Below are positions 11,593-35,257 of a stretch of DNA of 46,665 nt, piece after piece. Numbering within the stretch: position 1 is the first letter of the stretch; each line of letters opens with the position of its first letter. The notes below the pieces were generated by a model, which had not been told where the DNA came from, ran no database searches, and saw nothing but the letters and a program-made list of their open reading frames with translations. This DNA comes from Deltaproteobacteria bacterium (lineage in GTDB: Bacteria; Desulfobacterota; RBG-13-43-22): positions 1 through 46,665 of the forward strand of contig JACRBX010000071.1 in assembly GCA_016219225.1 (NCBI GenBank), given 5' to 3'. The position numbers and the translations under genes were made by a program.

Positions 11593-11682
11593 TAGACTTA
11601 TTTTCATGCTTCATGGTGCCCCCAAAAGGGCTTAGGAGCTTAACACGAAACGAGCCTTGCGCTATTCTGGAGTTTATGCCCG

Positions 11683-25003: not shown

Positions 25004-25078
25004 GAGTATCAAGTATCAAGTATCAAGTTGCAGGTTGCAGGTTGCAGATTTTCGCTTTGAGCTTTCAGCTTTGATCTT
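25004..25078. repeat. Heptamer repeats between livK2 and livH2
   Basis: AGTATCA repeated three times runs into GTTGCAG repeated three times and then CTTTGAG CTTTCAG CTTTGAT. Three words follow each other with the 7-base spacing kept across most junctions. Confidence 0.85.
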
Positions 25079-25159: not shown

Positions 25160-26059
25160 ATGGACCTTGTTTATACCTTATGCCCGCCGGCGGTGCTCTG
25201 CCAGATCTTTGTGGGCCTCAGCCGGACGACGATCCTTTTCATCGTCTCCTCGGGCTTAAGCCTTATCCTGGGGGTACTCCGGATTCCGAACGTCGCCCAC
25301 GGCTCGCTCTATATGATCGGCGCCTTTGTAGCCTTCACCATATCAAAGCTTTTCGGCGGCGGGAGCCTCGGTTTCTGGATGGCCCTCATCATCGCCCCCC
25401 TGATCGTGGCCCTCATCAGCTTCCTCTCCGAACGGGGGATCTTCCAGTACCTCTACGAGAGGGAGCACCTGATGCTCATCCTGCTCACCTTTGCCTTCTC
25501 CCTGGTTTTCGGGGACCTGGTAAAAATCATCTGGGGGGGCGAGTACAAGTCCGTACCCGTCCCCCAGGTCTTCCAGGGGTCAGTGGCCCTCTTCGGGGGA
25601 CTTCCCTTTCCTTTATACAATATCTTTCTCCTGATTGCCGGCCCTATCATCGCCGTGTCCCTCTGGCTCATGGTCAATAAAACCAAGATGGGTAAGATCG
25701 CCCGGGCGGCCGCCGTGGACCGGGAGATGGTCGGGGCCGTCGGCATCAACGTAAGCTGGATATTTGCGATGGTCTTCGTGATCGGTTGTTTTTTGGCCGG
25801 TTTGGGCGGAGTCCTGGTGGCCCCCACGGTGAGCGTCACCCTGGGTATGGATCATACCCTCATCATCGAAGCCTTCCTGATCGTCATCATGGGCGGTTTG
25901 GGCAACATCTGGGGTGCCCTCCTGGGGGCCCTCATCTTCGGACTTTCCCAATCTCTGGGCATCCTGATCTGGCCCAAGTTCGGCATCATCTTCCCCTATC
26001 TGGCAGTGGTCGTTGTGCTCCTGCTCAGACCCACGGGATTGCTCAAGTCTACCTGGTAG
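25160..26059 (+). CDS. livH: LIV ABC transporter permease LivH (system 2)
   Basis: The 299-residue membrane protein has about eight helices. It contains SSGLSLILGVLRIPNVAHGS in the first third, a RAAAVDREMVGAVGINVSW coupling loop and GGLGNIWGALLGALIFG near the end. ATG 25160 gives the usual N-terminus; no strong Shine-Dalgarno is visible immediately upstream. It forms the channel with LivM2. The gene ends 14 bases before livM2. Confidence 0.92.
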   Translation: MDLVYTLCPPAVLCQIFVGLSRTTILFIVSSGLSLILGVLRIPNVAHGSLYMIGAFVAFTISKLFGGGSLGFWMALIIAPLIVALISFLSERGIFQYLYEREHLMLILLTFAFSLVFGDLVKIIWGGEYKSVPVPQVFQGSVALFGGLPFPLYNIFLLIAGPIIAVSLWLMVNKTKMGKIARAAAVDREMVGAVGINVSWIFAMVFVIGCFLAGLGGVLVAPTVSVTLGMDHTLIIEAFLIVIMGGLGNIWGALLGALIFGLSQSLGILIWPKFGIIFPYLAVVVVLLLRPTGLLKSTW

Positions 26060-26073
26060 GAGGAGGCCTCTAA

Positions 26074-27096
26074 ATGAAAATGCGAATATCGAATAGCGAA
26101 TATCGAAGGCCGAAGGCCGAAGGGGAGATTCCTTTAAATTCCGAACTCCGAACACCGAACTCCGAACTCTTTTTTCTAACCAAGGCCGCGGTCTGGTTGA
26201 TCGCCGGACTGGCCCTCCTGTGCCTCGCCCCTCTTTTTTTGCCCAGGTTCTACATCTACCTGCTTTCGGTCATGCTCCTTTACGGGCTTCTGGCCTCCAG
26301 CAACAACCTGGCCCTGGGTTTCGGAGGGATCTACCAGCTCCACCATGCCGTCTTCTACGGGGTCGGGGCCTACGGGTCGGCCCTGATGATCGTCAAATCG
26401 GGGCTTTCGCCCTGGCTGGGCTTCCTTGTGGGGCCTCTGGTGGCCGCGGCCCTGGGGCTCGTCATGGGGGTGATCTGTATCCGCCTCTCCAAGCTCTACT
26501 TCGGCATGCTCCAGATCTCGCTGGGCTCCCTGGTCTGGGTCATCGTCTACCGCTGGTACTCCTTTACCGGGGGGGATGACGGCATCCACGGCATTACCGT
26601 GCCCGATCTGATTTCCACCGGTCAAGGGGCCTACTACTTTACCCTGACGGTCACCACCTTGTCCATGGTCGCCATGTATCGTGTCTTGAAATCGCCCTTC
26701 GGCAGCGCCCTCCAGGGCATACGGGACAACCCCGTCAGATCGGCCATGATCGGCATCAACGTCCGGAGACACCAGCTCCTGACCCTGGTGATCGTGGCCT
26801 TTTTTGCCGGGGTGGCCGGGACCCTCTTTGTCGTTGTAGACAATACGGTCTTCCCCGATATGCTTTTCTGGACCCTCTCCATGGAAGCGGTCATCATGTG
26901 CCTGTTAGGAGGTTGGCTCACCTTCCTGGGACCCATGCTCGGGGCCTCCCTGATCGTGGCCATCAGAACCTTCGTCAGCACCTATACGGTTTACTGGGCC
27001 CTGGTGCTGGGCATCATCTTTATGCTGGTCATCTTCTTCCTCCCCGACGGAGTCCTGGGGTGGGGGGAAAGCAAACTGAAACCGGCCAAGGAGTGA
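26074..27096 (+). CDS. livM: LIV ABC transporter permease LivM (system 2), with a repeat-derived N-terminus
   Basis: The 340-residue permease has about ten membrane segments, the NLALGFGGIYQLHHAVFYGV landmark and the coupling loop ALQGIRDNPVRSAMIGINV. Residues 1 to about 36 are not permease-like: they include SELRTPNSEL and are encoded by heptamer arrays (GAATATC/GAAGGCC, then CCGAACT). ATG 26074 has a strong GGAGGAGG site, so the repeat lies inside the translated region. Family members normally start close to the first helix (here from about residue 38). An internal TTG near 26197 is an alternative start but has no obvious ribosome site. Confidence 0.88.
   Translation: MKMRISNSEYRRPKAEGEIPLNSELRTPNSELFFLTKAAVWLIAGLALLCLAPLFLPRFYIYLLSVMLLYGLLASSNNLALGFGGIYQLHHAVFYGVGAYGSALMIVKSGLSPWLGFLVGPLVAAALGLVMGVICIRLSKLYFGMLQISLGSLVWVIVYRWYSFTGGDDGIHGITVPDLISTGQGAYYFTLTVTTLSMVAMYRVLKSPFGSALQGIRDNPVRSAMIGINVRRHQLLTLVIVAFFAGVAGTLFVVVDNTVFPDMLFWTLSMEAVIMCLLGGWLTFLGPMLGASLIVAIRTFVSTYTVYWALVLGIIFMLVIFFLPDGVLGWGESKLKPAKE
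26081..26172. repeat. Heptamer repeats within the livM2 coding region
   Basis: GAATATC GAATAGC GAATATC GAAGGCC GAAGGCC comes first, then at 26140-26172 CCGAACT CCGAACA CCGAACT CCGAACT. The second block is identical over 33 bases to the spacer at 32329-32361 in the toxin-antitoxin island. Confidence 0.9.
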
Positions 27097-28598: not shown

Positions 28599-28749
28599 GT
28601 TAAAATAGTTAAAATAGGTCAGGCATCCTGTTAAAATAGGTCAGGCATCCTGCCTGACAATAGTCCGATCGGCCGAAGGCCGATGGTATTGAAACCATTA
28701 AACAGTTAGCCCCGCCCGGGCGGGGCTGACCCTATTGACTGTTAATTCT
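28599..28749. repeat. Cluster of direct repeats and nested palindromes
   Basis: Two copies of a 22-base unit (GTTAAAATAGG plus TCAGGCATCCT) start at 28608 and 28630. GTCAGGCA/TGCCTGAC arms form a hairpin at 28640-28658. ATCGGCC/GGCCGAT arms with a GAA loop form a second. GCCCCGCCC/GGGCGGGGC is a perfect palindrome inside outer arms AACAGT/ACTGTT. It may be a processed or terminator-like RNA structure or a repeat-element relic. Confidence 0.7.
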
Positions 28750-31533: not shown

Positions 31534-31794
31534 ATGAAATCCCGAACCATGGTTTATCTTGAAGTTGAACAGCTTCAATCCCTGCAAAAGGAGGCCAGAT
31601 CTCAAAGAATTTCCTTGGCCGAACTGATGCGGCGTTTGGTGAAGGAACATCTTACTAAGGAACGAGGAGTACCGGCGGCCCCCAAAGAAGCCTATCTCAA
31701 AATTGTCGGATTAGGGGCAAGCGGGAAAAAAGACATTTCAGGAAACCACGATCGTTATCTGGGGAAGGCCATCCTCCGTGAGCATACTCGTTGA
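31534..31794 (+). CDS. vapB: Ribbon-helix-helix antitoxin (VapB-like)
   Basis: The 86-residue protein has an N-terminal MetJ/Arc-type ribbon-helix-helix (RTMVYLEVEQLQSLQKEAR followed by ISLAELMRRLVKEHL, residues 3-42) and a flexible tail with a conserved-looking ENHDRYLGKAI-type ending (GNHDRYLGKAI) that would block the VapC active site. It overlaps vapC by 17 bases. It likely represses its own promoter through the palindrome at 31488-31501. Confidence 0.85.
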   Translation: MKSRTMVYLEVEQLQSLQKEARSQRISLAELMRRLVKEHLTKERGVPAAPKEAYLKIVGLGASGKKDISGNHDRYLGKAILREHTR

Positions 31795-32200
31795 TACCGG
31801 GGCCTGGTATGCCATCGTTGATACTTCGGACCGCCATCATAAAGAAGCCAAGCGCTTTTATAGTGAACAGGTTTCAAAGGCCCCTTTTATAACTACCGAC
31901 CTGATCTTGGCCGAAACATGGACCTTAATCAACTCCCATATCGGCCGATCCGCTGCCAGAACATTCTGGGAAACCTTGAGAGAAACAAGAATCCCCATCT
32001 TAACCATCGAACCGGTTGATCTGGAAGCCGCCTGGAGGATTGGCCGGGATTTTTCCGATCAAACTTTCAGCCTGGTGGATTGTTGCACCTTCGCCGTCAT
32101 GGAAAGGATGGGGACTTCGGAAGCCTTCACCTTCGACGCCCATTTTTTAACTTACCGATACGGTCCTACGCGGCAGCGTGTCTTTCGATGTTCTCCTTAG
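31778..32200 (+). CDS. vapC: VapC-type PIN-domain ribonuclease toxin
   Basis: The 140-residue PIN-domain protein has the acidic metal-binding set in place: Asp6 (LVDTGAW), Glu46 (LILAETWTL), Asp101 (SLVDCCTF) and Asp120 (FTFDAHF). It would cleave tRNA or rRNA with magnesium. It begins inside the antitoxin gene. All catalytic residues are present, so this pair is probably functional. Confidence 0.92.
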   Translation: MSILVDTGAWYAIVDTSDRHHKEAKRFYSEQVSKAPFITTDLILAETWTLINSHIGRSAARTFWETLRETRIPILTIEPVDLEAAWRIGRDFSDQTFSLVDCCTFAVMERMGTSEAFTFDAHFLTYRYGPTRQRVFRCSP

Positions 32201-32290
32201 CCCTGTCTCCTTTTTGAACTCAAGCCGCCCCGGCGAACGATCCTCAAGAGCAGTGCTCCTCAAGTCCTACGGGGCACTCTTCTATCTTTC

Positions 32291-32361
32291 TTTGAGCTTT
32301 CAGCCCCTCGCCTTTTCCTTTCTTTTTCTCCGAACTCCGAACACCGAACTCCGAACTCTTT
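32291..32361. repeat. Composite spacer with heptamers after vapC
   Basis: TTTGAGC TTTCAGC, then CCCTCGCC and a CTTTT-rich run, then CCGAACT CCGAACA CCGAACT CCGAACT. The last 33 bases (32329-32361) are identical to 26140-26172 in livM2. Confidence 0.85.
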
Positions 32362-32424
32362 ATTTTGATTACGATTCCCAACACAGGAAAAAGAAAATTC
32401 CCCTCTCTGAATTCATATAATTAC

Positions 32425-32453
32425 TTGACATTGGTTAACATGTAAGTTAACAT
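32425..32453 (+). promoter_or_regulatory. Promoter of the Gp49-like toxin / XRE pair
   Basis: TTGACA (32425-32430) and TAACAT (32448-32453) are 17 bases apart. Two GTTAAC sites (32434-32439 and 32446-32451), 12 bases apart, form the probable operator. The ATG at 32460 is 7 bases after the -10, so the transcript should be leaderless. Confidence 0.75.
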
Positions 32454-32459
32454 TTTCTT

Positions 32460-32819
32460 ATGAGTAAAACGGTACTCTTCTATAAAACCGCCGACGGTCA
32501 ATGCCCTGTACAAAATTTTCTTGATTCTTTACCCGGAAAGGTTGCTCAGAAAGTAACCTGGGTCTTGGGTCTTCTTGAAGACTTGGATGATGTTCCTTCC
32601 AACTATTTTAAGAAGCTTGTCGGTACAGACGAAATTTGGGAGTGCAGAATTCAGTTAGGTTCAAATTCGTATCGCATTTTTTGTTTCTTTATCAAAAATG
32701 CCTCTGTAGTTTTGACCCATGGTCTTATAAAAAAGAGCCAAAAAATACCAAAGAGAGAAATTAACAAGGCAGAGGCTTATAGAAAAGATTTCTTGAAAAG
32801 GAGTTGGAGCAATGAGTGA
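32460..32819 (+). CDS. Phage Gp49-like / RelE-superfamily toxin (HigB-type)
   Basis: The 119-residue protein is of the Gp49-like family: VLFYKTADGQCPVQNFLDSL at the start, YFKKLVGTDEIWECRIQLGS in the core and VLTHGLIKKSQKIPKREINK near the end, the usual conserved run. It would act as a ribosome-dependent mRNA interferase. Its stop overlaps the antitoxin start by 8 bases. No Shine-Dalgarno precedes the ATG, in line with the leaderless promoter. Confidence 0.88.
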   Translation: MSKTVLFYKTADGQCPVQNFLDSLPGKVAQKVTWVLGLLEDLDDVPSNYFKKLVGTDEIWECRIQLGSNSYRIFCFFIKNASVVLTHGLIKKSQKIPKREINKAEAYRKDFLKRSWSNE

Positions 32820-33087
32820 CCTCAAAAAATATGTAACAGACCGCAAGAAAAAAGATTTAGATTTTGCTATAGGCTATGAGGAAGGGTATGAACAATTCAA
32901 AATCGGTTTTTTGCTTCGTCAGGCCCGTGAATCCGTCGGATTGACCCATGAAGAATTGGCGCAGAGACTTAAAACCAAAAAAACCGCCATTTCCAGAATT
33001 GAAAACCATGCCGAAGATATTAAACTCTCAACCCTGGAGCGTGTTGCAAAAGCGCTCGGGAAGCGATTGCAAGTAAGCATCGCCTAA
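32812..33087 (+). CDS. XRE-family antitoxin partner of the Gp49-like toxin
   Basis: The 91-residue protein has an N-terminal toxin-binding arm (residues 1-35) and a helix-turn-helix (about 38-88) reading GLTHEELAQRLKTKKTAISR, then IENHAEDIKLSTLERVAKAL. A GGAG site lies before the ATG. It should bind the GTTAAC pair and repress the operon. Order is toxin first, as in other Gp49-XRE modules. Confidence 0.88.
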   Translation: MSDLKKYVTDRKKKDLDFAIGYEEGYEQFKIGFLLRQARESVGLTHEELAQRLKTKKTAISRIENHAEDIKLSTLERVAKALGKRLQVSIA

Positions 33088-33112
33088 CCAATGACCTTTC
33101 AAGGCCGCCTTT

Positions 33113-33190
33113 GAGCTTTGATCTTTTCCTCCGGCATTTCGGTTTTTCTTTTCTTTTTTCCCCAAAAACCGAACTCTAAACTCCGAACTA
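33113..33190. repeat. Composite spacer before hicAB
   Basis: CTTTGAG CTTTGAT, a CT-rich run and degenerate CCGAACT, AAACT, CCGAACT words lead directly into the hicA promoter. Confidence 0.65.
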
Positions 33191-33201
33191 TCTTTTTCCC
33201 C

Positions 33202-33229
33202 TTGACATTAATATCAATAATGATACCAT
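33202..33229 (+). promoter_or_regulatory. hicAB promoter with inverted-repeat operator
   Basis: TTGACA (33202-33207) and TACCAT (33224-33229) have a 16-base spacer containing TATCA-ATAA-TGATA (33212-33225). The ATG at 33236 is 7 bases after the -10, again leaderless. Confidence 0.65.
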
Positions 33230-33235
33230 TTAACT

Positions 33236-33490
33236 ATGGGCGAGATAAGAGACCTCCTTACACCAATGAGCCTCAATCCGGGTAATGTTCGTTTCAGCGA
33301 TCGGTGTAAGGTATGCGATCACTACTTTGGTAAACCTCGGCAGTTCGGGAGCAGTCACCGAGTTTATAAAACCCCATGGCCTGGCGATCCTCGCGTGAAC
33401 ATACAATCCAGGAAAGGAAAAGCCAAAGCCTGTCCAGTAAGACAGGTTCTTAAAGCCATAGAAAAATTGGAGTCGAAAAATGGCAATTAA
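33236..33490 (+). CDS. hicA: HicA-type mRNA interferase toxin
   Basis: The 84-residue HicA fold protein has VRFSDRCKVCDHYFGKPRQF and the catalytic-histidine segment GSSHRVYKTPWPGDPRVNIQ, then VRQVLKAIEKLE. The histidine in SSHRVY is the RNase residue of the family. It overlaps hicB by 11 bases. It looks full length for this subfamily. The transcript appears leaderless. Confidence 0.85.
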   Translation: MGEIRDLLTPMSLNPGNVRFSDRCKVCDHYFGKPRQFGSSHRVYKTPWPGDPRVNIQSRKGKAKACPVRQVLKAIEKLESKNGN

Positions 33491-33809
33491 AAATGATCGA
33501 TACACCTACCGGGTAACTTGGTCTGAGGAGGACCAGGAATATGTCGGCCTGTGCGCGGAGTTTCCCAGTCTGAGCTGGCTGGCGCGTACGCCCGAGGCTG
33601 CCTTAAAAGCCATTCGGAGGATAGTGGCGGATGTAATCAAGGATATGAAAAATAACAACGAACCCATACCTGAACCCATTGCTACCAAACGATATAGCGG
33701 TAAGTTTATGGTTCGAGTACCCCCAGAAGTTCATCGCAATCTGGCCATTAAAGCAGCAGAGGCAGGAGTCAGTTTGAATCGGCTGGCCAGTTCGAAGTTG
33801 TCACAATAA
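33480..33809 (+). CDS. hicB: HicB-type antitoxin
   Basis: The 109-residue protein has a partial RNase-H-like HicB domain (residues 5-60; YRVTWSEEDQEYVGLCAEFP and ALKAIRRIVADVIKDM) and a C-terminal ribbon-helix-helix (FMVRVPPEVHRNLAIKAAEA then GVSLNRLAS). It neutralises HicA and binds the promoter. It starts inside hicA, so the order is toxin-antitoxin. Residues look intact. Confidence 0.9.
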   Translation: MAIKNDRYTYRVTWSEEDQEYVGLCAEFPSLSWLARTPEAALKAIRRIVADVIKDMKNNNEPIPEPIATKRYSGKFMVRVPPEVHRNLAIKAAEAGVSLNRLASSKLSQ

Positions 33810-34787: not shown

Positions 34788-35257
34788 TGCGCGTCTCGAA
34801 GCATGAAAATGGTTTGGGTGCGGCTCTTTTAGAACGACCTTGATCAACAGTATCTGACATATAGATTAATATCCATCTATGAAGCCTGTTTTTTAATAGC
34901 ACATTCCACCCTTTTAAGTTTTTGCAAATCATCTGAATTTTCGCTGAAGTTTCTCCGACGGACGGCGGAACTCACAGGGATAAAATCAATAATGGTAAGG
35001 CTGTATTTTAAAATTCAAAAAACTTTATTTTGAGGAAACAATTCCCTACAAAACGAATGGATTGTGACATGCTCTATGCCTTAATTTTCCAAAATAAATA
35101 ATAACAATAACATCTAGTTGCATTGGGGGGGGAGTAATTATTTTTTTCTTGACATGACTATTTGACTATTTTAAGCTTCCAATTTTAAATCAAATTGTGA
35201 CCCAATTTTTCAATTTTACCTCCTATGATGTAAGGAAAAGTGCCTTGATCTGATCTT
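34788..35257. other. AT-rich gap
   Basis: These 470 AT-rich bases have no ORF of protein-like content on either strand. A TTGACA occurs near 35154 without a convincing -10. A G-run (about 35126-35134) is the only marked local feature. I see no tRNA, repeat array or strong hairpin. Confidence 0.5.

Follow-up and report, generated by a model that had tools for sequence, protein, structure and literature searches.

A dispersed heptamer-repeat element as the probable source of the N terminus of a branched-chain amino acid permease in a Desulfobacterota genome

We propose that the first ~35 residues of LivM2, a branched-chain amino acid type ABC permease, are very probably encoded by a copy of a dispersed composite repeat whose in-frame insertion took place where livM originally started, and that livM2 exemplifies a process at work across the lineage. 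The reading frame, the Shine-Dalgarno (SD) sequence and homology support the view that a dispersed heptamer repeat now serves as the putatively translated N terminus of this protein. The window, meaning the whole stretch of DNA analyzed, comprises 46,665 nucleotides of a Deltaproteobacteria bacterium (assembly GCA_016219225.1, contig JACRBX010000071.1) and belongs to a draft MAG of 5.93 Mb in 353 contigs, with a contamination of 4.8%.

Layout of the livM2 insert

The livM2 gene (26074..27096, + strand) encodes 340 amino acids, of which residues 61-319 match Pfam BPD_transp_2 (112.5 bits), and it follows a livH-type permease gene on the same strand (25160..26059; BPD_transp_2, 118.3 bits) that ends in a TAG stop codon at 26057-26059. 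The SD sequence of livM2, AGGAGGAGG (26058..26066, +), overlaps the livH stop and is separated by 7 nt from the ATG at 26074, a layout common to most orthologs. livH is separated from the periplasmic binding protein gene by a spacer in which three other heptamer arrays stand in succession (window 25005-25078), with the units AGTATCA, GTTGCAG and GCTTTGA.

The element-derived insert forms the 5′ coding end of livM2 (26074..26184, +), is absent from the orthologs and adds a net 28 codons relative to the modal ortholog. On the + strand it consists of a left arm, ATGAAAATG, which includes the start codon (26074..26082; element consensus CGAAGCATGAAAAT), a first heptamer cluster of CGAATAT and then CGAAGGC units (26083..26123), a second array, (TCCGAAC)n, whose 33-mer codes for NSELRTPNSEL (26140..26172), and a right arm, TTTTTTCTAACCAAG (26170..26184; compare TATTTTCGAACTAAA), which codes for FFLTK and was assigned by alignment to an element copy. 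The initial annotation had placed heptamer arrays between the SD/ATG and the first helix, which TRF confirmed by delimiting three of them: CGAATAT x3.6 (26083-26107), CGAAGGC x2.9 (26104-26123) and TCCGAAC x4.3 (26140-26169). It had also reported a 33-base identity with a toxin-antitoxin spacer, and the 33-mer TCCGAACTCCGAACACCGAACTCCGAACTCTTT is indeed present without a mismatch both at 26140-26172 and at 32329-32361 (+ strand), where it occupies the spacer before a Gp49/HTH toxin-antitoxin-type pair and is flanked on its other side by an RHH/PIN pair. The surrounding toxin-antitoxin-type gene cluster (window 31534-33806) comprises RHH/PIN, Gp49/HTH and a HicB-family protein.

Conceptual translation bore out that (CCGAACT)n yields one and the same cyclic heptapeptide, PNSELRT, whichever frame is read; the other strand gives SSEFGVR, and the array is stop-free. 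The complete livM2 insert does not share this openness in all frames, owing to CGAATAG in array 1 and to TAA, in other frames, in the spacer and right arm. The suggestion that such a word can enter a gene in any frame therefore stands for reading through the array but not for holding the frame downstream: a computed change of one or two units in array 2 truncates or frameshifts LivM2. Only multiples of three units leave LivM2 intact, so array 2 is under constraint or else may act as a switch.

Similarity to a dispersed composite element

The repeat had been described as an intergenic repeat captured by the gene, a description that fits a translated N terminus; what was captured, however, is not a bare array but one copy of a dispersed element of greater extent. 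In this element, the arms CGAAGCATGAAAAT and TATTTTCGNACTAAA are conserved around a variable cargo of heptamer arrays and sometimes other repeats, measuring 11-190 bp between CGAAGCATGAAAAT and TATTTTCG(A/T)ACTAAA. A GCCCC/GGGGC hairpin lies upstream of the left arm, and elements can occur in succession. The first arm, CACCACGAAGCATGAAAA, was found at ~298 places in the genome when up to 2 mismatches were allowed (control, 0), and at up to 1 mismatch in 20/297 genomes of the phylum, with differing cargo. Further element sites in the window lie at 34796 and 11601-11618.

Aligned with an element copy at L106:~5170, window positions 26074-26169 are identical at 78/96 positions without a gap, with a score of 102 against a shuffled maximum of 23, and the right arm aligns to a copy on L138. 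The homology to the L106 copy begins precisely at the livM2 ATG, and therefore the start codon is itself matched by the element's CATGAAAATG arm, from which it may derive. The AmiC-like amidase gene on L138 has the same arrangement as livM2, MKMAHSELRTPNSELHFRTK.

The arms GAAAAT...ATTTTC are complementary, and the bare arrays are not palindromic. No covariation between the cargo ends was found beyond that of shuffled sequences, and pairing of these ends in a stem was rejected on this ground. A RAYT (Y1 transposase) was considered as the mover and discarded, as four such genes were found and none of their fetched flanks contained the arms. In an Rfam search, tRNA was the sole match.

Heptamer arrays across the genome

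The sequence CTCCGAACTCCGAACTC occurs in 99 exact copies in the 5.93-Mb assembly (reversed control, 0), and the CCGAACT pattern is present in 24/297 genomes of the phylum. A census of arrays covered 1.31 Mb of the window's genome (G000), part of this sample having been picked for holding the array, and genes were called by a home-made codon scoring. Among exact tandem runs with periods of 2 to 40, period 7 accounted for 125 and period 14 for 14, and no other period exceeded 4; a third-order Markov control gave a single run at period 7. The 259 arrays comprise 65 distinct heptamer words, which is why we regard the period rather than the sequence as conserved.

Most arrays (225/259) lie outside called genes, where 20% of random positions fall, and they favor spacers between co-directional genes (186/215). 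Divergent (promoter) spacers are avoided, holding 10/215 arrays versus 18% of the spacer bases in the same 1.31 Mb.

Random heptamers are stop-free on at least one strand in 90% of cases and on both in 57%. Selection of words for being stop-free was considered and not adopted, as 172/259 arrays are stop-free on both strands against the expected 57%, but only 33/65 unit types are, which makes for a weak effect. In the sense frame, 30/31 in-gene arrays are stop-free versus 155/189 in co-directional spacers (P 0.024).

In-frame arrays in other genes

Forty-one genes have an array in their open 5′ frame; in nine of these, a start lies upstream and the first 40 nt downstream contain none. Arrays in frame at the N terminus were found in NadD, EtfA, an amidohydrolase and the AmiC-like amidase. 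NadD scores 198.8 bits with NF000840, against an NCBIfam equivalog cutoff of 150, and its domain begins directly after RTPNSELRTPNS; the next in-frame start is absent for 166 nt, and the array-bearing copy is the sole full nadD found in the genome. In the amidohydrolase gene, the next start lies at +213 nt. These two inserts without a nearby downstream start support N-terminal translation in LivM2 as well.

Other in-frame arrays lie inside proteins. FolC has ~106 amino acids (residues ~253-358) in place of 6 in 1o5z, the DegT aminotransferase has ~56 residues in place of 3 in 8e77, and a CusA-type pump has 54 residues versus 10 in a solved homolog, plus ~26 extra elsewhere; in TrmJ, again compared with a solved homolog, the insert occupies a linker. 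The FolC insert (L124:5467-5784) contains several different heptamer arrays and lies between the middle and C-terminal domains.

Retention in relatives and word exchange

The NadD N terminus reads RTPNSELRTPNSKRIGLFGG in the window's genome, LTPQSAIRNPQSKRIGLFGG in the congener G002 and SSPQSTIANPKSLRLGLFGG in the congener G001, and in the sister genus (G004) the protein starts with MRLGLFGG. The nadD arrays (L149:6677-6710 compared with L235 and L236) have equal unit number and register and different words; at the DNA level, TCCGAAC x4 in one species stands in frame against TCCGCAA x4 in its congener, unit by unit, and each unit shows the same two differences. A heptamer-type insert in FolC is also present in G001 and missing from G004, and TrmJ carries another heptamer insert in G001 and none in G002. 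A lipoprotein gene begins with M(D/G)SELRTPNSELK in both G000 and G002, with 383/509 residues identical. In G004, the amidohydrolase N terminus MTPNSELRTPNS corresponds to MTPNSAILTPND, a decayed version. Because congeners retain the NadD, FolC, TrmJ and lipoprotein inserts, whose coding status is judged from frame and homology, these inserts are old and compatible with function.

From these comparisons we tentatively suggest, as an idea that may well prove wrong, that a process in this lineage writes and rewrites heptamer arrays in and between genes, that it works by templating or conversion of whole arrays (the word exchange) and not by simple slippage, and that it is a continuing source of new N termini, linkers and loops.

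The same data bear on what else the livM2 repeat might be. It could act in regulation, as a site in the translation initiation region that a protein or an sRNA recognizes and whose peptide is a by-product, as has been proposed for Beggiatoaceae TAACTGA repeats just upstream of starts (PMC4679880) and as the preference for co-directional and avoidance of divergent spacers would suggest; we consider this improbable, as it leaves the deep inserts in FolC, CusA, DegT and TrmJ unexplained and as word and array vary among orthologs. About equally improbable is a contingency switch, in which slippage by one 7-nt unit would toggle livM2 off and on. An array of 4.3 units just past the start, in which a change of one or two units breaks the product and multiples of three keep it, would suit such a role, and heptanucleotide repeats have been proposed as phase-variation tracts in Haemophilus (PMC2651432); however, the livM2 array is short, one of its units is imperfect, and the number of units is unchanged in the congeneric arrays of nadD and the lipoprotein gene, which argues for stability.

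The translation start of LivM2

Our preferred reading, a repeat copy inserted at the livM start and translated, was also examined through the orthologs. Comparison of LivM2 with its relatives, proposed in the initial annotation, showed a conserved SD/start junction and nonconserved first 28 residues: in 45 GTDB orthologs, the starts correspond to LivM2 residues 15-34, most often 29, and the 28-residue extension MKMRISNSEYRRPKAEGEIPLNSELRTP aligned in 0/45, being found in the window only. The junction of livH ...TGG-stop, SD and livM start is present in most orthologs and phylum relatives with the same spacing as in livM2, and for this reason an upstream drift of the gene start over an intergenic array was rejected. 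No livM2 ortholog was found in the congeners, the nearest ortholog being 76-79% identical, and no LivM2 relatives were found in viral contigs.

AF2 modeled LivM2 with a mean pLDDT of 81. Residues 1-30 have a pLDDT of ~58 and no secondary structure, and a helix is predicted at residues 29-55, with ~94 from residue 29. The permease core is predicted well. The extension is most likely a tolerated disordered tail. It is highly improbable that translation begins at the TTG at 26197..26199 (+ strand), the sole in-frame start to follow the insert ahead of the core of membrane helix 1, and that the repeat is an untranslated leader, as this codon has no SD ahead of it whereas the ATG at 26074 has a strong one with the same placement as in orthologs, and as it encodes residue 42, ~13 residues downstream of the ortholog starts and inside the predicted helix, so that a start there would cut into the first membrane segment. 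Some other orphan start, or a leader role of another kind, retains a small probability.

Proposed course of events and significance

For the livM2 insert, we infer translation, neutrality and the mechanism of insertion. A repeat copy, with arms and heptamer cargo, would have entered in frame at the original start of livM, directly after the livH stop and the SD of livM. Translation from ATG 26074 would then run through the arrays and add 28 unstructured residues before membrane helix 1, leaving the permease core unaltered. Persistence of the insert may be due to arrays free of stops in the frame used, to an overall length that preserves this frame, and to a tail at the N terminus doing no harm. 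Across the lineage, heptamer arrays would enter and persist in coding sequence at N termini, C termini, linkers and loops.

If translation has been read correctly from the sequence, noncoding tandem repeats turn into protein repeatedly here and are kept across species, and the recipients include transporters and also conserved enzymes that make NAD and folate. The inserts would form a naturally dated series (missing from the sister genus, present in congeners, decayed once) suited to the study of new protein segments, and the word exchange in NadD raises the question of whether heptamer arrays are rewritten in concert. Stop-free arrays can also lengthen open reading frames, so gene starts and apparent insertions in such genomes should be annotated with care.

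Comparison with known repeats

The closest descriptions in other bacteria differ from the present case in several respects. Rickettsia palindromic elements are presented in the review PMC10969869 (citing Ogata et al. 2000) as dispersed noncoding repeats found in frame in unrelated genes, where the extra peptides are tolerated. By that account, the likeness lies in the many copies per genome (here 99 array matches and ~298 arm matches) and in the in-frame inserts in unrelated functional genes (NadD, FolC, CusA, DegT, TrmJ and others). In contrast, the elements here consist of heptamer arrays, alone or between arms, many cases are N-terminal, and words differ between orthologs; they also belong to another phylum, and the likeness is one of description.

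For Geobacter metallireducens, the section of PMC2700814 on a four-heptanucleotide element (GGGACCG x4, 49 copies) proposes a regulatory RNA element. It resembles ours in being multicopy, heptanucleotide-based and located between and within genes of a delta-proteobacterium, but it has a single word, and its description in that section does not include the gene-start capture, word exchange and ortholog retention found here.

TAACTGA forms intergenic heptamer direct repeats in Beggiatoaceae, with a few in ORFs and those mostly at protein ends, and one repeat lies close to where a corrinoid ABC permease begins (PMC4679880). That system has a single word, which includes stops when read forward, and related heptamers are rarely repeated, unlike the 65 words counted here. 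Intergenic heptamers are likewise over-represented as STRR in Nostoc and Calothrix and as GGGAATC in Xanthomonas, with a polymerase footprint as the proposed cause (PMC4692102). Our arrays share with these heptameric simple sequence repeats the enrichment of period 7 and the mainly intergenic location; those studies concern intergenic arrays, some as G-quadruplexes, whereas the words here are not G-runs. The open-licence literature searched did not yield this combination of many words, capture at gene starts, inserts inside conserved enzymes and exchange of words between orthologs. With regard to MITEs, which have terminal inverted repeats and a target-site duplication and are mobilized by a transposase, inverted arms were seen in the element, and none of the four Y1-transposase loci carries them. 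Among other repeats, the window also contains an exact 22-bp tandem duplication, GTTAAAATAGGTCAGGCATCCT, at 28608-28652.
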